Assembly: GCA_021604005.1 (NCBI GenBank)
Contig: BQIV01000034.1
Location: 1 to 51,158 of the forward strand
DNA length: 51,158 bases
From: Nitrospirales bacterium
GTDB taxonomy: Bacteria > Nitrospirota > Nitrospiria > Nitrospirales > UBA8639
Direction: 5' to 3'
Shown here: positions 9,948-24,310 of the stretch, one piece after another
How the letters are laid out: every line of letters starts with the position of its first letter
Position numbering within the stretch: position 1 is the first letter of the stretch
Program-made: the position numbers and the translations under genes
Notes under the pieces: generated by a model
Seen by the model: the letters and a program-made list of their open reading frames with translations, nothing else
Databases searched by the model: none
Told to the model about the DNA's origin: nothing

Positions 9948-10178
9948 TTACCGCGCACCCACCGGACGAAGCGTTGGGAGCTGTATGGTCTCTTCTTCTA
10001 TGGGTATCAGCGGGACACCGTTTTCATCCTGTTGAGGTGGAGGTTGCCGTTGTTCCCGAATTTTGGCCTCTAACCCTACTTCCTCTGGCGCAATGGGAGG
10101 GCCAGCTGCGCCACATGCTGTAGAAAGACAAAGCAGCAGACTCGCACTGTAGATTCGTATCGATAGGGTCATCCACAT
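9948..10178 (-). CDS. lptM: Small LptM-like lipoprotein
   Basis: A 76-residue lipoprotein. A short signal peptide ends in lipobox STAC with the modified Cys at 22, followed at once by G-A-A-G-P-P, matching the C-G-x-x-G-P pattern of LptM/YifL. The rest is Pro/Glu-rich and probably unstructured. In E. coli LptM sits next to dapF and helps LptD, the outer-membrane lipopolysaccharide translocon, to mature. Related small lipoproteins are often found next to lysA, as here. GGAG lies 4-5 bases before the first ATG and 10 before a second ATG at 10172, so the exact start is uncertain. The family call rests on the motif, size and neighbourhood; the function here is inferred. Confidence 0.65.
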   Translation of the reverse strand: MWMTLSIRIYSASLLLCLSTACGAAGPPIAPEEVGLEAKIREQRQPPPQQDENGVPLIPIEEETIQLPTLRPVGAR

Positions 10179-10245
10179 AGTCTCCGTTGGACGATTAGGT
10201 GACGGCTATTGACCCAAGGACGTTCACGTTGAAAACGTTCGTGCA

Positions 10246-16890: not shown

Positions 16891-16910
16891 AATGACGGCA
16901 TGCCGTCATT
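16891..16910. promoter_or_regulatory. Perfect 20-bp palindrome at the ahcY stop codon
   Basis: AATGACGGCATGCCGTCATT is a perfect 20-bp palindrome overlapping the ahcY stop codon (complement of 16909-16911). In RNA it could only form a tight hairpin with a short loop, and no T run follows. It could be a protein-binding site or a short mRNA 3' structure. Confidence 0.45.
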
Positions 16911-18291
16911 AATATTTGTAGCTGTCTTCTTTAAATGGCCCGTCCACGGAGACATTGATGTAGTCGGCTTGAGTCTTGGTCAATTTGGTAATAACTCCTC
17001 CAAATCCACGAACCATATGCGCAGCCACTTCTTCATCAAGGCTTTTGGGTAAGACTTTTACCGTCACGTCTTGAATTTGTTGATCGGCAAATTTTCGTTC
17101 GTATAAATAAATCTGCGCGAGCACTTGATTGGCAAAGGAGCCATCCATGATTCGAGACGGATGACCGGTGGCGTTGCCTAGATTGACAAGACGCCCTTCG
17201 GACAAGAGAAGCAGGTGATCATTGCGGGATTTGTCACGATAGACTTTGTGTACCTGCGGTTTGACTTCCTCCCAATCCCAATGTTCACGCATATAGGCGG
17301 TATCGATCTCGTTGTCGAAATGCCCGATGTTACAGACAACAGCGCCTGCTTTGAGCGATTGCAACATGGCGGAATCGCAGACATTGAAATTGCCCGTCGT
17401 GGTCACGACGAGATCGGTGTTCCCTAGCAATGCCGTATTGATGTTTTCGACTTTTCCGGTATTGATTCCATCATTGTAGGGAGAGACGACTTCAAAGCCG
17501 TCCATGCAAGCTTGCATGCCGCAAATCGGGTCGATTTCCGAAACTTTCACGATCATGCCTTCTTGGCGAAGCGATTGCGCGGAGCCTTTCCCGACGTCGC
17601 CATATCCGATCACCAATGCTTTTTTCCCGGCGAGCAAGTGATCCGTGCCACGTTTGATGGCATCATTTAAGCTGTGCCGACATCCGTACTTGTTGTCGTT
17701 TTTCGATTTGGTGACCGAGTCGTTGACGTTAATGGCTGGAACTTTGAGTGTGCCTTTTTTCAGCATTTCCTGAAGGCGATGCACGCCGGTGGTGGTTTCT
17801 TCGGTAATGCCGTGGACACGGTCGAGCACGGCAGGATACTTTTCATGCAGCATTAAGGTTAAGTCGCCACCATCATCGAGGACCATATTGGCATCCCATG
17901 GCACACCATCTTTTAGAATCGTTTGCTCCAGGCACCAATCATACTCTTCTGCCGTTTCACCTTTCCAGGCATAGACCGCGATTCCGCGTGCCGCAATGGC
18001 TGCGGCTGCGTGATCTTGCGTCGAAAAAATGTTGCAGGACGACCAACGGACCTCTGCGCCAAGCTCAATCAATGTTTCAATAAGTACGCCGGTTTGAATC
18101 GTCATGTGAATGCAGCCGAGAATTTTCGCGCCTTTGAGCGGTTGGGAGGCTCGATACTTGTCCCGTAATGCCATCAACGCCGGCATTTCTGTTTCGGCAA
18201 TCGCAAGTTCCTTTCGTCCCCAATCGGCGAGGGAGATATCCGCGACTTTATAATCTGTCGTTTTCGGGTCTATGGTGGCTGCGGTGCTCAT
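16909..18291 (-). CDS. ahcY: Adenosylhomocysteinase
   Basis: Hydrolyses S-adenosylhomocysteine to homocysteine and adenosine, recycling the methyl cycle in the cytosol. The 460-residue length is typical. Seen are the N-terminal [15 protein letters not shown] block, [16 protein letters not shown], the [16 protein letters not shown] catalytic stretch and the NAD-binding [11 protein letters not shown] motif, and it ends in the canonical Y-K-Y. AAGGA precedes the ATG by about 9 bases. It lies 107 bp downstream of metK on the same strand, so the two enzymes that make and clear SAM products are likely co-expressed. Confidence 0.97.
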
Positions 18292-18398
18292 ATCGTTTGA
18301 ATCCTTTCTGTGAAAATCAACGTTCTCGACTCACGAACACAACGCGGAGGCGCGGGCATATGCTGCTCTGCCTCGCAATGTGATGTCGTGGTCGCGGT

Positions 18399-19550
18399 TT
18401 ATACCCCGGCTTCGCGACGAAGCGCGGTGGCTTTATCTGTTTTTTCCCACGTAAAGCCTGGCTCATTCCGGCCAAAATGACCATACGCGGCTGTTTGCTT
18501 GTAAATAGGACGACGTAATTTAAGGTGTTCGATAATACCGCGGGGGTTTAACGGGAAGTGTTTGCGAACGAGCTTTTCAATTCGTTCTGCGGCGGTTTTT
18601 TCGGTGCCTTTTGTATCGACGAGCACTGAAACGGGATTGGGGACGCCAATGGCGTACGCCAGCTGTACTTCGCATTTATCCGCGAGTTTGGCTGCAATGA
18701 TATTCTTCGCGATATACCGAGCCATGTACGAAGCCGATCGGTCGACTTTACTCGGGTCTTTTCCAGAAAATGCCCCGCCGCCGTGACTGCCAACGCCTCC
18801 ATACGTGTCCACAATAATTTTTCTACCCGTGAGTCCAGTATCGCCCATGGGTCCGCCTGTGACGAATCGTCCAGTGGGGTTGATATGGAATTTCACGGTT
18901 TTGGGATTATATAGTTTCTTGGGCATCACGGGAGTGATCACCTTGTCCATGATATCTTTTTCGATTTTTTTAGATGTGACGGAATCGCTATGTTGGGTCG
19001 AGACGACAATGGTATCAATTCTCACAGGTTTTCCATTTTTATATTCCACTGTCACTTGGGCTTTTCCATCTGGTCGGACCCAGGGCAAAATGTTTTTCTT
19101 GCGAACTTCTGCCAGGCGACGAGTTAATCTGTGGGCAAGCACGATTGGCATCGGCATGAGCTCGTTGGTTTCATTTGTGGCATAGCCAAACATCAGGCCC
19201 TGGTCCCCTGCTCCACCCGTGTCCACACCCATGGCGATATCCCCGGATTGCGCATCGATGGCGGTCAAGACCGAGCATGTCCGATTGTCGAATCCCCATG
19301 TGGCATCGGAATAGCCGACACTTCTAATGGTTTCCCTTATGATGTCAGGAATTTCAACATACGCTTTGGTTGAAATTTCTCCGGCGACAAAGGCCAGTCC
19401 CGTCGTCAAAATGGTTTCGCAGGCCACTCGACAGTTTTTGTCTTTCTTAATAATGGCGTCTAAGATTCCGTCAGATATCTGATCGGCGATCTTGTCGGGG
19501 TGTCCTTCGGTCACGGATTCTGACGTAAAGAGATAATTGGATCGTCTCAT
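18399..19550 (-). CDS. metK: S-adenosylmethionine synthetase
   Basis: Makes SAM from methionine and ATP. The start is the ATG at 19550, giving the usual opening [20 protein letters not shown] and 383 residues. The open frame extends 57 codons further upstream, but that part encodes the leader hairpin and has no resemblance to the family. Signature blocks [12 protein letters not shown] and [16 protein letters not shown] are intact. It is followed by ahcY, 107 bp downstream. A promoter and a structured leader lie upstream, suggesting regulation of the pair. Confidence 0.97.
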
Positions 19551-19568
19551 TAAATAGTATCCTCTATT

Positions 19569-19624
19569 TGGTTTAGGGACAATATGGACCCAACGAAAGG
19601 TCCATGGTACTAGGGTCCCTGTGT
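19569..19624 (-). promoter_or_regulatory. Structured 5' leader of metK-ahcY
   Basis: In the roughly 98-base leader (minus strand), AGGGAC pairs with GTCCCT as an outer stem. An inner stem ATGGACC / GGGTCCAT closes an internal loop and a loop of about 7 bases. No T run follows, so it is not an intrinsic terminator. A regulatory RNA element is plausible given the gene, but I cannot match it to a known SAM or SAH riboswitch class by eye. Confidence 0.45.
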
Positions 19625-19654
19625 GATGGATAATCGGCGGGCAAGACTTACACT

Positions 19655-19682
19655 CTAATAAAAATGTACCCCTACCTGTCAA
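19655..19682 (-). promoter_or_regulatory. Sigma70 promoter of metK-ahcY
   Basis: A perfect -35 TTGACA (complement of 19677-19682), a 16-base spacer and -10 TATTAG (complement of 19655-19660). The start site would be near 19648, giving a leader of about 98 bases. Confidence 0.6.
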
Positions 19683-19689
19683 TAACAAA

Positions 19690-20182
19690 TTCTCTCTTCT
19701 TGTGCTAACTGCACGAAGCAACAGGAATTTTAGAGAGTCTTAATATGGTGTAAGAGAGACATATTTTGCATAGTTATTGGGAAAGTAAAGAGGTATGTAC
19801 ATCTGGCAGAGTTGGGTGCATCGAAATCCTTCGTGTAAAGAATTTCATGGTCCCGCAAATACCTCTTCTTCTAATCGGCGGGGCAGTGTTATTCGAAATG
19901 ACTTATAGAATGCCGCGTTGTTTGTTGTTAGGGTTTAATACGTATTTATAACTTTATGATTTAGGTTGCCGAGCATGGCGGAAACCATGATGAGGACAGA
20001 GCTTCTTCAGCGTTATCATTGAGTTGCATTACCTAAATATCGGGTGTTAAGATCACGCGTCATCTCCATATGAACCCTCGTCACAATTGAGACAAGATCG
20101 GTGGAATTTCTTGACTTGGGCGGGGTTGTTATTCTGTGCGCACTCGCTGGTTGGTCAGAGAAGTTTTAAGGAGGCTGTTTAG
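19690..20182. other. Divergent intergenic region metK / stress-PCP_red gene
   Basis: About 490 bp. No gene with a ribosome site is seen. The plus-strand promoter of the 20183 operon should be here; a TTGACT at 20111 is noted, but no well-spaced -10 follows it. Confidence 0.55.
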
Positions 20183-22279
20183 ATGTACAAAACAATATAC
20201 ATTCCGGTTGATAATTCAGACCATTCGAATAAAGCCGTGGATTTGGGTGTGGCGTTAGCAAAGACCTTCGGCTCCAAGATTGTCGGGAGTCATGTCTATG
20301 CTGCCAAAATGCATGATAAGCGTTTTAAGCAGATGGAGGCTGGTCTTCCGGAAGAATACCATGATGAAAAAGAGCTCGACCGTCAGCGGCAAATCCATGA
20401 TTCATTAATTACTCGAGGTCTGCAAATCATCACGGACTCATATCTTGACTATGTTGACCAACAGTGCGCAGAAGCCAATATTCCGCTTGAACGTCGCTCA
20501 CTTGAAGGACGAAATTGGAAAGTGTTAGCCGAAGACATCGGCACGAACGGATATGACTTGACCATTATGGGGGCGTTGGGTGTTGGGGCTGTGAAGGATT
20601 CGGTCGTGGGGAGTAATACGGAACGAGTCGTACGACGTGTGCGAAACTCCGATATGCTAATCATTAAAGACTTGAAAGATACCCAAGAAGGAAAGATTGT
20701 TGTTGCTGTCGATGGAAGCCACTACTCCTTTGGCGGTCTTAAAACGGCCTTAGCGCTTGGGAAAGCGTTAAATAAGCCGGTCGAAGCCATTTCCGCCTTC
20801 GATCCCTATTTTCATTATGCGGCATTTCATAGCATTTCCGGTGTGTTAAATGAGGAGGCAGGAAAAGTTTTTCGGTTCAAGGAGCAGGAAAAGTTGCATG
20901 AAGAAGTCATCGATAGTGGATTAGCCAAAATTTATCAATCCCATCTCGATGTCTCGCGTGATGTGGCGCAGGATGAGGGTGCCGATATCAAAACCACGCT
21001 GTTGGATGGCAAGGCCTTTGAGAAGGTTATTCAATATGTTCGAAAGGAACAACCGTGGCTACTCATTGTTGGGCGGATTGGCGTTCATAGTGATGATGAT
21101 ATGGACATTGGGAGCAACGCCGAAAATCTTCTTCGGTCAGCACCCTGTAATGTCTTAATCTCAAATCAAAAATTTATACCACCGATTGATACGCAAGCTG
21201 AGTACACCATTGCGTGGACGGAAGAAGCCTTAAAGCGAATGGAGAAAATTCCTGTTTTTGCGCGAGGTGTTGCAAAGACAGCTATTCATCGCTATGCCAT
21301 TGAAAAAGGGCATACGATCATCAGTGATTCTGTGATTGATGCTGCCGTTGGCGATATCCTTCCCAAGGGGGCTATGGATGCTATGCGAGCGCTGGGTGGG
21401 AACCTGGATGCTGCAGGAATTGACCGCGATAAAATGCAGGCTGATGACTCAGTGGCTAGTGATCTCATGGGGTCGTCCCTCAGTGGTATGATGAATCAAA
21501 TCGTTGAGGAAAAACCTCAAGCCGTCAACCCTGGCGTAAGCGCGGCGAATCAGTCATACCTCGATCGCATGTCTCGTGCCTATTACGTGTGCAATGGTTG
21601 TGGATATATTGGGAAGGGTGACCCTGCTCCTGTGAAATGTCCGGTCTGCGCCGCAGATGGTGCGCAGTTCAAAGAGGTTGATAAAGCCATTTTTGATGCG
21701 GCGGCCAAAGCTGAAGGTGAACTTGAGACGCACCTCGCCTATGATGATGTTCCGATGCAGTGGACCAAAGATGCCAAGGAAGCCATCCGTGCAGTCCCGG
21801 CAGGATTTCAACGGAGACGAGCTAAAGCAAGGATTGAAAAATCAGCAAGAAAGTTGGGAATGACGACGATTACCTTGGAGTACGCATCGCCGACAATTGA
21901 AGAAGCAGCTGCAGAAGACTACACGCCAATTTTTGCCAATAAGGCACCTTCAGATGGGGAACCCACTATGAAGCCAAATGGAACCGATGGTCAAGATGCA
22001 GAATCCTCGCCCTACACGTGGGAGCCGGCGGCAACCGAGCGTCTCGAGCGGGCTCCGGCCGGATTTATGAGAGACTGCACGAAAGCTTTGATTATCAAGC
22101 ATGCTGAAAAGCTTGGCACGACAGTCATCACCATTGATGTTGCCAATGAAGGTATTGAACAGGCGAAGCATACAATGGAAGAAGCGATGAAGACTGGGAA
22201 TGTCAAAGATATTATTGCAAACTTAACTGGTTCAGGAGAGAAATCTGAAGCTCCTTCAGGAGCTGGCCAACATGGGTAA
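20183..22279 (+). CDS. Tandem universal-stress, PCP_red and zinc-knuckle fusion protein
   Basis: A 698-residue cytosolic multi-domain protein. Two UspA domains (about 1-165 and 168-328) each keep the ATP-binding pattern G-x2-G-x9-G-S (GALG...GS at 130-144; GRIG...GS at 297-311). There are three PCP_red units (about 344-388, 525-567 and 611-652), each of the form W-x-E/K/P-A-x(5-6)-P-x-G/F-x-R. Between the first and second lies a four-Cys knuckle, C470-x2-C473...C486-x2-C489, rubredoxin-like in spacing. PCP_red is known as the C-terminal segment of the protochlorophyllide reductase B subunit. GGAGG precedes the ATG. The stop overlaps the next gene by 8 bases. I infer a nucleotide-sensing and redox or tetrapyrrole-binding scaffold; the actual function is unknown. 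Confidence 0.85.
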   Translation: MYKTIYIPVDNSDHSNKAVDLGVALAKTFGSKIVGSHVYAAKMHDKRFKQMEAGLPEEYHDEKELDRQRQIHDSLITRGLQIITDSYLDYVDQQCAEANIPLERRSLEGRNWKVLAEDIGTNGYDLTIMGALGVGAVKDSVVGSNTERVVRRVRNSDMLIIKDLKDTQEGKIVVAVDGSHYSFGGLKTALALGKALNKPVEAISAFDPYFHYAAFHSISGVLNEEAGKVFRFKEQEKLHEEVIDSGLAKIYQSHLDVSRDVAQDEGADIKTTLLDGKAFEKVIQYVRKEQPWLLIVGRIGVHSDDDMDIGSNAENLLRSAPCNVLISNQKFIPPIDTQAEYTIAWTEEALKRMEKIPVFARGVAKTAIHRYAIEKGHTIISDSVIDAAVGDILPKGAMDAMRALGGNLDAAGIDRDKMQADDSVASDLMGSSLSGMMNQIVEEKPQAVNPGVSAANQSYLDRMSRAYYVCNGCGYIGKGDPAPVKCPVCAADGAQFKEVDKAIFDAAAKAEGELETHLAYDDVPMQWTKDAKEAIRAVPAGFQRRRAKARIEKSARKLGMTTITLEYASPTIEEAAAEDYTPIFANKAPSDGEPTMKPNGTDGQDAESSPYTWEPAATERLERAPAGFMRDCTKALIIKHAEKLGTTVITIDVANEGIEQAKHTMEEAMKTGNVKDIIANLTGSGEKSEAPSGAGQHG

Positions 22280-23660
22280 ATCTCTTCCTGTTCTTCATTC
22301 GCCAGGCACTCCTGCAAGTCAATCGGCCTTTCCGTCAAATGTCACGAGGTTTGATTCACCGGCGACACGTGGATCAGATAACCCATATGATGGTCGAACG
22401 GTTGATGACTTCAAGCCGTATCTCGTCGCGCTCAATCTCACGAAGCGATGCAATCTAAAGTGTGATCATTGCTATCTCGACGCCACGACCAAACTCGGTG
22501 GTGGCAATGATGAGTTAACGACTGAAGAATGCTATCGACTGATCGACCAAATTGCCGAAGTCAACCGTGGATGCCTGTTAGTCATTACGGGTGGTGAGCC
22601 GTTAGTCCGTCCCGATATTTTGGATATTGCCAGGCATGCGGTTAAATTAGGTTTTATGGTGGTGTTTGGAACGAACGGGATGCTTATTGATGATCCGATG
22701 GCGAAAGAGCTGGTTGACATCGGCGTCATGGGTGTCGGGATTAGCATTGATTCACTCGATCCTGAGAAGCACAATGCGTTTCGCGGCTTAGCAAAGGCTT
22801 GGGAAGGGGCGCTTGCTGGCATAGAAGCCTGTAAACGCAATGGGCTTCAGTTTCAGATTCATTTTAGTGCCCAGCCCATGAATTATCAGGAATTACCTAA
22901 GGTTGTTGATTGGGCCCATGACCTTGGAGCCAAAGTCCTGAATGTCTTCTTTATGGTGTGTACTGGGCGTGGAGAGGAACTTTCCGATATCACGCCTTCT
23001 CAATATGAAGAAGTCCTTGGCTATTTGGTTGACTGCCAAGACAAATATAACGATATGCTCGTTCGGGCCCGCTGTGCTCCACACTTTAAGCGGTTGGCGT
23101 ACGAAAAAGATCCCAATTCACCAATCACGAAAGCGCAGGGGTATATGGGGGGCGGCTGTTTGGCGGGGACGAATTATGCGAGAGTCACGCCGAATGGGGA
23201 TCTGACGCCATGCCCCTATATGCCGCTTTCCGCTGGGAACGTTCGTGATAAGAGTTTTGTGGATTTATGGGAACGATCAGATATATTTGACTCGTTTCGC
23301 TATCCTCACCTCAAAGGCAAGTGCGGCGACTGTGAGTACAGTGAAATTTGTGGCGGGTGCAGGGCGAGGCCTTATGTTGATCATGGCGATTGGCTTGATG
23401 AAGATGAATGGTGTCTCTATACGCCAAAAGGCGGGGATAAAGTTGAAGTCGCCTTTAATGTTCCTGAGGCAACGTCTGTTGTATGGGACGAAGCCGCAGA
23501 GACTCGACTGAATCGTATCCCGTATTTTTTACGTGCTATGGTGAAGAAAGGCGTTGAACGCCACGCGGTTGAACGAAACCTTTCAGTCGTGACAATTGAA
23601 CTCATGGAAGAACTTCGAAAAAAGCGGTTTGGAAACGAAACTCCGGTATTTAAGTTCTGA
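22272..23660 (+). CDS. Radical SAM/SPASM protein with C-terminal PCP_red domain (AhbD/NirJ-like)
   Basis: 462 residues. The radical SAM cluster motif C60-x3-C64-x2-C67 is followed by the GGEP motif (ITGGEPLVRPDI). A SPASM-type region with many Cys (about 285-380, including CPYMPL, CGDCEYSEICGGC and a late C) should hold auxiliary iron-sulfur clusters. The last 50 residues form a PCP_red unit (VVWDEAAETRLNRIPYFLR...). The core resembles the heme-modifying radical SAM enzymes AhbC/AhbD and NirJ, including an FFMVCTGRGEE stretch. An assignment to heme or heme d1 chemistry is therefore likely but not proven. Translation is coupled to the preceding gene (8-base overlap), with GGAG 9 bases before the ATG. 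The first 40 residues are unconserved-looking. Confidence 0.85.
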   Translation: MGKSLPVLHSPGTPASQSAFPSNVTRFDSPATRGSDNPYDGRTVDDFKPYLVALNLTKRCNLKCDHCYLDATTKLGGGNDELTTEECYRLIDQIAEVNRGCLLVITGGEPLVRPDILDIARHAVKLGFMVVFGTNGMLIDDPMAKELVDIGVMGVGISIDSLDPEKHNAFRGLAKAWEGALAGIEACKRNGLQFQIHFSAQPMNYQELPKVVDWAHDLGAKVLNVFFMVCTGRGEELSDITPSQYEEVLGYLVDCQDKYNDMLVRARCAPHFKRLAYEKDPNSPITKAQGYMGGGCLAGTNYARVTPNGDLTPCPYMPLSAGNVRDKSFVDLWERSDIFDSFRYPHLKGKCGDCEYSEICGGCRARPYVDHGDWLDEDEWCLYTPKGGDKVEVAFNVPEATSVVWDEAAETRLNRIPYFLRAMVKKGVERHAVERNLSVVTIELMEELRKKRFGNETPVFKF

Positions 23661-23782
23661 TTGAGTGACAACCATCCTGTGTTGTGTCAGACCTCAATAA
23701 TCCGACCATTGTATCGATCTATGTCAGGTGAGTGGGTCAGTTACTAATAATTTGATTCGTTATTCCTCAGAAACATAGTTTT

Positions 23783-24310
23783 ATGGAAGCTCTTCAAGCG
23801 GTCTTTACAGACCTCAATCAAGTTATACCTATTCTTGTCCATTGGCTGCATTTGCTTTCTGCCGTCGTCTGGATTGGTGGGTTGGCCTTTTTAGTGATGG
23901 CGGTGACCCCTGGCCTACGGACATCTGTACCGAAAGAATACATCAGACCGATTACCGAAACTTTTTATTTGCAGTATAAGCGAGTCGTGGGTGTGATTCT
24001 GGTAGTGGCCTTGTTCACGGGTGGAATTAATCTTCATTACGTGAGTAAAGCCATGGAGCTTATGACGGGCGATGGCATATCGCACAATGCCAAATATCTC
24101 ACGATCTTTTTCATAAAATTAAGTTTAGTTTTAGGTGTTTTAACGATATTTCTCTATACCGTCATCTTTAAGAATGAGCCGACGGGCGAAGAAACGACGG
24201 AAGAAAAAGAAGAAATGGTATATGAACCTGTCCCGTTCCAACGTGGAACCTTATGGATGGGGGTCTTTATCATCCTTTGTGCTGCAGCCATGAAGCATCT
24301 CCATAGCTAG
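23783..24310 (+). CDS. CopD-like four-helix membrane protein
   Basis: A 175-residue inner-membrane protein with four predicted spans (about 18-38, 68-90, 105-130 and 155-173). The first span, HWLHLLSAVVWIGGLAFLV, is the hallmark of the CopD/DUF2269-like family, where helix His residues are thought to bind metal or heme. Further His residues are H85 and H101, and a Glu-rich loop lies before the last helix. It starts 122 bp after the radical SAM gene on the same strand. No clear ribosome site is visible, so the ATG is chosen by homology-like topology. With the two genes before it, it may form one functional module, with the membrane partner perhaps handling heme, copper or electrons. Confidence 0.7.
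   Translation: MEALQAVFTDLNQVIPILVHWLHLLSAVVWIGGLAFLVMAVTPGLRTSVPKEYIRPITETFYLQYKRVVGVILVVALFTGGINLHYVSKAMELMTGDGISHNAKYLTIFFIKLSLVLGVLTIFLYTVIFKNEPTGEETTEEKEEMVYEPVPFQRGTLWMGVFIILCAAAMKHLHS

Follow-up and report, generated by a model that had tools for sequence, protein, structure and literature searches.

A conserved gene module of universal-stress and radical SAM proteins with PCP_red domains, linked to heme metabolism in Nitrospirota and other bacteria

Genes for AhbD are known to occur beside hemY, hemH and hemQ (PMC10548856), and in one archaeon ChdC serves under aerobic and AhbD under anaerobic conditions (PMC5746218). The PCP_red domain is the C-terminal domain of subunit B of DPOR (BchB/ChlB), and trait surveys have taken PCP_red genes as a marker of phototrophy (PMC12815261). 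Solved structures exist for relatives of this domain, namely Asr4154 and the C-termini of BchB (2l09, 2kru and 8vqi). We report here a conserved module of three genes with domains homologous to that of subunit B, located on a 51,158-nucleotide contig from a Nitrospirales bacterium (the window, by which we mean the whole stretch of DNA analysed). The module is linked to heme metabolism. The literature searched yielded no description of it, nor of PCP_red outside phototrophy.

All three genes lie on the forward strand, as do the features located below, at the positions given in an earlier note on this DNA (20183-22279, 22272-23660 and 23783-24310). By ORF coordinates, the ATG of the second gene sits 8 bases within the 3′ part of the first. 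The first gene encodes a double universal-stress protein (USP) of 698 residues, recognised from its ORF, Pfam matches and motifs. Usp is matched over two stretches (109 bits) and PCP_red over three (102 bits), both above the Pfam gathering scores. The ATP motifs claimed for it are intact, with G-x2-G-x9-G-S at residues 130 and 297, and most USP homologues retain both. Its four-cysteine knuckle is a rubrerythrin-type, rubredoxin-like RUBY_RBDX domain (residues 468-497, positions 21584-21673; 33.4 bits against a cut-off of 26.5) with cysteines at 470, 473, 486 and 489. Four PCP_red copies had been counted in the module. Three of these exceed the PF08369 gathering score of 32.5 bits singly, namely unit 1 (21215-21346, 52.5 bits) and unit 2 (21761-21880, 42.3 bits) of the USP and the one unit of the radical SAM protein (23484-23618, 58.7 bits), but unit 3 of the USP (22019-22144) reaches only 27.8 bits, under the single-unit cut-off.

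The second gene encodes a radical SAM/SPASM protein (rSAM) of 462 residues with a C-terminal PCP_red domain, assigned from its ORF, Pfam and a tree. Radical_SAM (89 bits), SPASM (39 bits; residues 296-355, positions 23157-23336) and PCP_red (54 bits) are all above their gathering scores. The CxxxCxxC radical-SAM cluster motif is intact at residues 60-67 (22449-22472), and the cysteines of the SPASM region are located at 314, 351, 354, 360, 363 and 381. The description of this protein as AhbD/NirJ-like holds in that AhbD (TIGR04545, 306.8 bits) and NirJ2 (TIGR04055, 324.3 bits) are by far its nearest families, though it falls under the cut-off of 500 of each and belongs to a separate third clade. 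The rSAM-PCP_red proteins tested score 307-343 bits with both profiles alike. In a tree built on 330 columns, with the fill threshold chosen to omit the PCP_red region, 38 rSAM-PCP_red proteins form one clade beside 39 AhbD/NirJ2-type proteins with a support of 99; several of the latter exceed the AhbD or NirJ2 cut-off. The protein shares with AhbD the CxxxCxxC motif, SPASM-type cysteines and a gene that can adjoin hemY, and with NirJ2 its radical SAM subgroup. It differs from both in its lower score, its own clade and its PCP_red domain, and from AhbD also in having a USP partner.

A predicted model of the rSAM protein (pLDDT 80.5, pTM 0.78) was used in a structure search. The nearest solved SPASM structures belong to the peptide/PQQ maturases SuiB, SkfB and PqqE, matched over approximately residues 40-385 with Z of 26-29. 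Such a match would suit a module in which PCP_red serves as a generic docking unit, the rSAM modifies a protein or peptide, and the whole senses energy or oxygen and regulates respiratory complexes. PCP_red is indeed found in many architectures and repeats, USPs bind nucleotides, and USPs as a class go up at low O2 in N. marina, in a report that does not name the window's USP (PMC8115632). The SPASM fold predicted in common with the maturases does not, however, show the substrate of the rSAM. By sequence the protein sits with the tetrapyrrole enzymes, far above the peptide maturases; no precursor peptide was identified, and the heme-gene neighbours and fusion described below (HemY adjacency and a HemQ-type frame) would be left unexplained. 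We therefore consider a docking and sensing module quite unlikely.

PCP_red is present in 41/41 relatives, and the order USP, rSAM, CopD-like (the third gene) is retained in families f1, f2 and f3 among them; named matches at 80-85% identity come from Nitrospira and Nitrospirota. The observation set out in the earlier note is confirmed: it would have fallen had PF08369 scored under its threshold or had the three genes failed to occur together in relatives, and neither was the case. Within a phylum sample of 148 genomes, USP and rSAM are adjacent in 58 of the 61 genomes having both (count read by hand; the exceptions are G167, G047 and G166), and the gene order is reversed in one genome (G124, locus L072). 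Among the matches listed, rSAM-PCP_red proteins occur in Alpha- and Gammaproteobacteria, SAR324, Gemmatimonadota, a BD2-11 clade genome, Vicinamibacteraceae, Poribacteria, anammox bacteria, Nitrospinota and others, and a USP lies beside the rSAM in most of the groups outside the phylum. No USP was seen near the rSAM copies of Brocadia (L093) and Vicinamibacteraceae (L118). Family f4 keeps the USP and CopD-like genes together; its rSAM sits at a separate locus and is joined in the tree to Poribacteria with full support, a pattern suggestive of replacement and of a lasting need for the enzyme. In f17, Gammaproteobacteria and Brocadia the rSAM carries additional fused PCP_red units. Between the window and the complete genome G014, of the same family, USP and rSAM are conserved at 84 and 82% and MetK and AhcY at 87 and 83%, so that the two pairs are about equally conserved. 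Coincidental neighbours sharing an incidental domain might be argued from the poor conservation of the third gene between phyla and from a rubredoxin knuckle that is not universal. We give this idea almost no credence, as it is contradicted by linkage in several phyla, by the 58/61 adjacency, the reversed order at L072, the repeated fusions and the strong conservation.

Upstream of the module, on the opposite strand, the window carries metK and ahcY (16909-19721), which also lie near the module in G014. A SAM-supply link was rejected: the two genes were not seen at more distant loci, apart from an incomplete metK at the border of L096.

The wider set of loci also bears on how the two partners might act together. 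The knuckle is confined to the window's class and Poribacteria, so an electron donor of the rubredoxin kind is not a general feature. The USPs of f24-f26, L091, L115 and L125 show no PCP_red, yet mostly still adjoin the rSAM; PCP_red in the USP is therefore not required for pairing, and this weakens the suggestion in the earlier note that the partners bind each other through the shared domain. On its companion idea of nucleotide or redox control, the ATP motifs are retained in most homologues and the knuckle has the narrow distribution just given. In one single-contig genome the USP protein was matched as two distant pieces (G013:C1:897836-899062 and 543762-544517).

The tetrapyrrole link proposed in the same note gained independent support from two kinds of gene association. 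HemY directly follows the rSAM at around ten loci in Alpha- and Gammaproteobacteria and f17 (L092, L094, L110, L112, L113, L114, L116, L123 and, in f17, L075 and G048); with TIGR00562 (cut-off 97.85) the HemY proteins at L094, L114 and L075 score 286, 250 and 305 bits. In ten genomes of f18, PCP_red and PF06778 (HemQ type) share one frame, as judged by frame coordinates. In G065:C12, for example, PCP_red spans 10080-10202 and PF06778 10491-11009, with an offset divisible by three and equal frame length. HemQ/ChdC thus resembles the module in its association with PCP_red, but it belongs to a protein family other than that of the rSAM and has a gene of its own in the genome of the window.

Profile searches for other heme enzymes revealed gaps in several carriers. 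HemN was not detected in f1, f3, f5, f7-f9, f11, f15 or f16, PF06778 not in f5, f6, f11, f15, f16 or f17, HemY not in f11, f15 or f16, and an AhbD-type match neither in the window's class nor in f15 or f16. HemN, HemQ and AhbD all gave no match in f5, f15, f16 and G051, which all carry the rSAM; with these undetected, the rSAM is the strongest candidate left for the final step in these lineages (HemF was searched in G014 only, where an E. coli query gave no convincing match). One f5 genome, G132, has HemH and HemY adjacent and no HemQ, HemN or AhbD. In G014, HemE, HemY and PF06778 are present and the sole HemN relative is HemW-like. An AhbABCD siroheme route was considered for G014 and rejected on a motif search, which gave neither a NirDL/AhbAB motif nor a further AhbD/NirJ-like rSAM; the other radical SAM proteins that it found were one MoaA-like and one QueE-like.

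The explanation we favour, with confidence falling a little short of even, is that the rSAM is an O2-independent enzyme of the coproheme decarboxylase type with an ATP-binding USP partner. The enzyme, a sister of AhbD and NirJ2, would probably work on iron-coproporphyrin (coproheme) and take off propionate carboxyls without O2, giving heme b or a close derivative. Such a step could serve where the O2/H2O2-dependent HemQ is absent or poor. PCP_red may hold the tetrapyrrole or dock the proteins that handle it, and the double USP, a constant partner, probably couples activity or assembly to the ATP level, a role suggested by its two intact ATP motifs. The assignment draws on AhbD and NirJ2 as nearest families, the single clade, the 58/61 adjacency, the HemY neighbours and the HemQ-type frame. 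It draws also on the heme-gene gaps described for f5, f15, f16, G051 and G014, and on the f4 copy, the rSAM-PCP_red fusions and a conservation like that of MetK and AhcY. The earlier note had spoken of an unusual heme; this is not supported as worded, since the ordinary step from coproheme to heme b fits at least as well.

Several observations argue against a coproheme enzyme. The rSAM lies under both cut-offs of 500, and known AhbD biology offers no explanation for the role of the USP. PF06778 is also present in carriers of f1, f3 and f7-f9, and HemN in f6 and G048, which would make the step superfluous in those carriers; in f1 and f3 the PF06778 protein may be either a coproheme decarboxylase or a chlorite dismutase. 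In family f18 the HemQ/PCP_red frame coexists with HemN, HemH and HemY. Ferrochelatase, on the route to coproheme, is a further difficulty: HemH (PF00762) was not detected in the f1 genomes tested (G000 and five others) or in G014, nor in f11, f15 or f16, and a simple motif search gave no class II chelatase that could substitute for it. The f1 genomes tested do have HemY and PF06778 (and, in G014, HemE) although no ferrochelatase was detected.

A cluster of bd-like oxidase, EB_dh and cytochrome c genes similar to one found beside the pair is known in Nitrospira, Nitrospina and anammox bacteria, and unusual cofactor sites are predicted for the bd-like oxidases of Nitrospira (PMC6606698). In SAR324 L165 and in L125, Cyt_bd_oxida_I, EB_dh (alt-NxrC-like) and cytochromes c adjoin the USP/rSAM pair; parts of this cluster are found at L107, L124, L091, L072 and L092, and in L089 the rSAM lies within a nos operon. 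These neighbours support a respiratory use of the product, whether heme b or a special heme. We also considered that what the module makes or installs is a special tetrapyrrole, rather than ordinary heme b, for a nitrite-oxidoreductase-linked bd-like/cytochrome c complex. The odd cofactor sites and the loci just described are consistent with this, as is a two-unit PCP_red protein amid respiratory-type membrane genes of the window's genome, and an rSAM alongside HemN or HemQ would suit an extra product. Several loci, however, have no oxidase nearby, the gene is kept in lineages where no other decarboxylase was found, and the HemY neighbours suit a porphyrin(ogen) step equally. A special tetrapyrrole is in our judgement somewhat unlikely. 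The USP/rSAM pair is a concrete candidate for heme completion and bd-like oxidase cofactors in nitrite oxidisers.

A profile search of the window's genome (4.7 Mb, 92 contigs) located 12 PCP_red units, spread over five proteins that do not include a BchB. Outside the module these are a four-unit protein near sppA/rpsA-like genes, a cysteine-containing two-unit protein adjoining an Mrp/ApbC-type ATPase, and the small two-unit protein mentioned above. Unlike BchB, the module has no nitrogenase-like body, and the match to TIGR01278 (61 bits against 490) covers the C-terminal domain only. This suggests that phototrophy is not reliably indicated by PCP_red genes. The stand-alone proteins of four and two units may be carriers or scaffolds. 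A similar set lies in a single run beside a USP/rSAM/CopD run at L077:7629-10868, comprising a four-unit PCP_red protein, an iron-containing Haem_oxygenas_2 redox enzyme, a cysteine-containing two-unit PCP_red protein and an Mrp-type ATPase. An unlikely but broader reading is of a widespread tetrapyrrole machine, in which the ATP-binding double USP and several PCP_red carriers would deliver a precursor of heme to an AhbD/NirJ enzyme of a third kind that makes a respiratory heme form. If true, the bd-like complexes and those linked to nitrite oxidoreductase would use this heme form in nitrite oxidisers and anammox bacteria.

The third gene (23783-24310) encodes a small helical membrane-type protein of 175 residues, identified from its ORF and a family profile, and may contribute a membrane function. 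Its earlier CopD-like label is weak, as NF033808 gives 32 bits, well under its cut-off of 195. In the alignment its resemblance to CopD/HemJ consists of helices, a histidine early in the first of them and a lysine in a later one; H23, Y105, K112 and Y125 are invariant in 13 homologues. The protein nonetheless falls under every cut-off. HemJ (UPF0093, gathering score 34.2) does not match the window protein and gives 16.7 bits with the homologue at L098, and the fold search was uninformative, its predicted model (pLDDT 71) having no PDB match with E under 3.

Other genes occupy the position after the rSAM elsewhere. The family following it in f24 has no Pfam or NCBIfam match (L071 tested). In SAR324 the protein after the rSAM has PCP_red, and a similar protein in L125 falls into one cluster with it. 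Proteins in this position are encoded at L165:8284-9210, L071:10560-11291 and L087:10888-11649.
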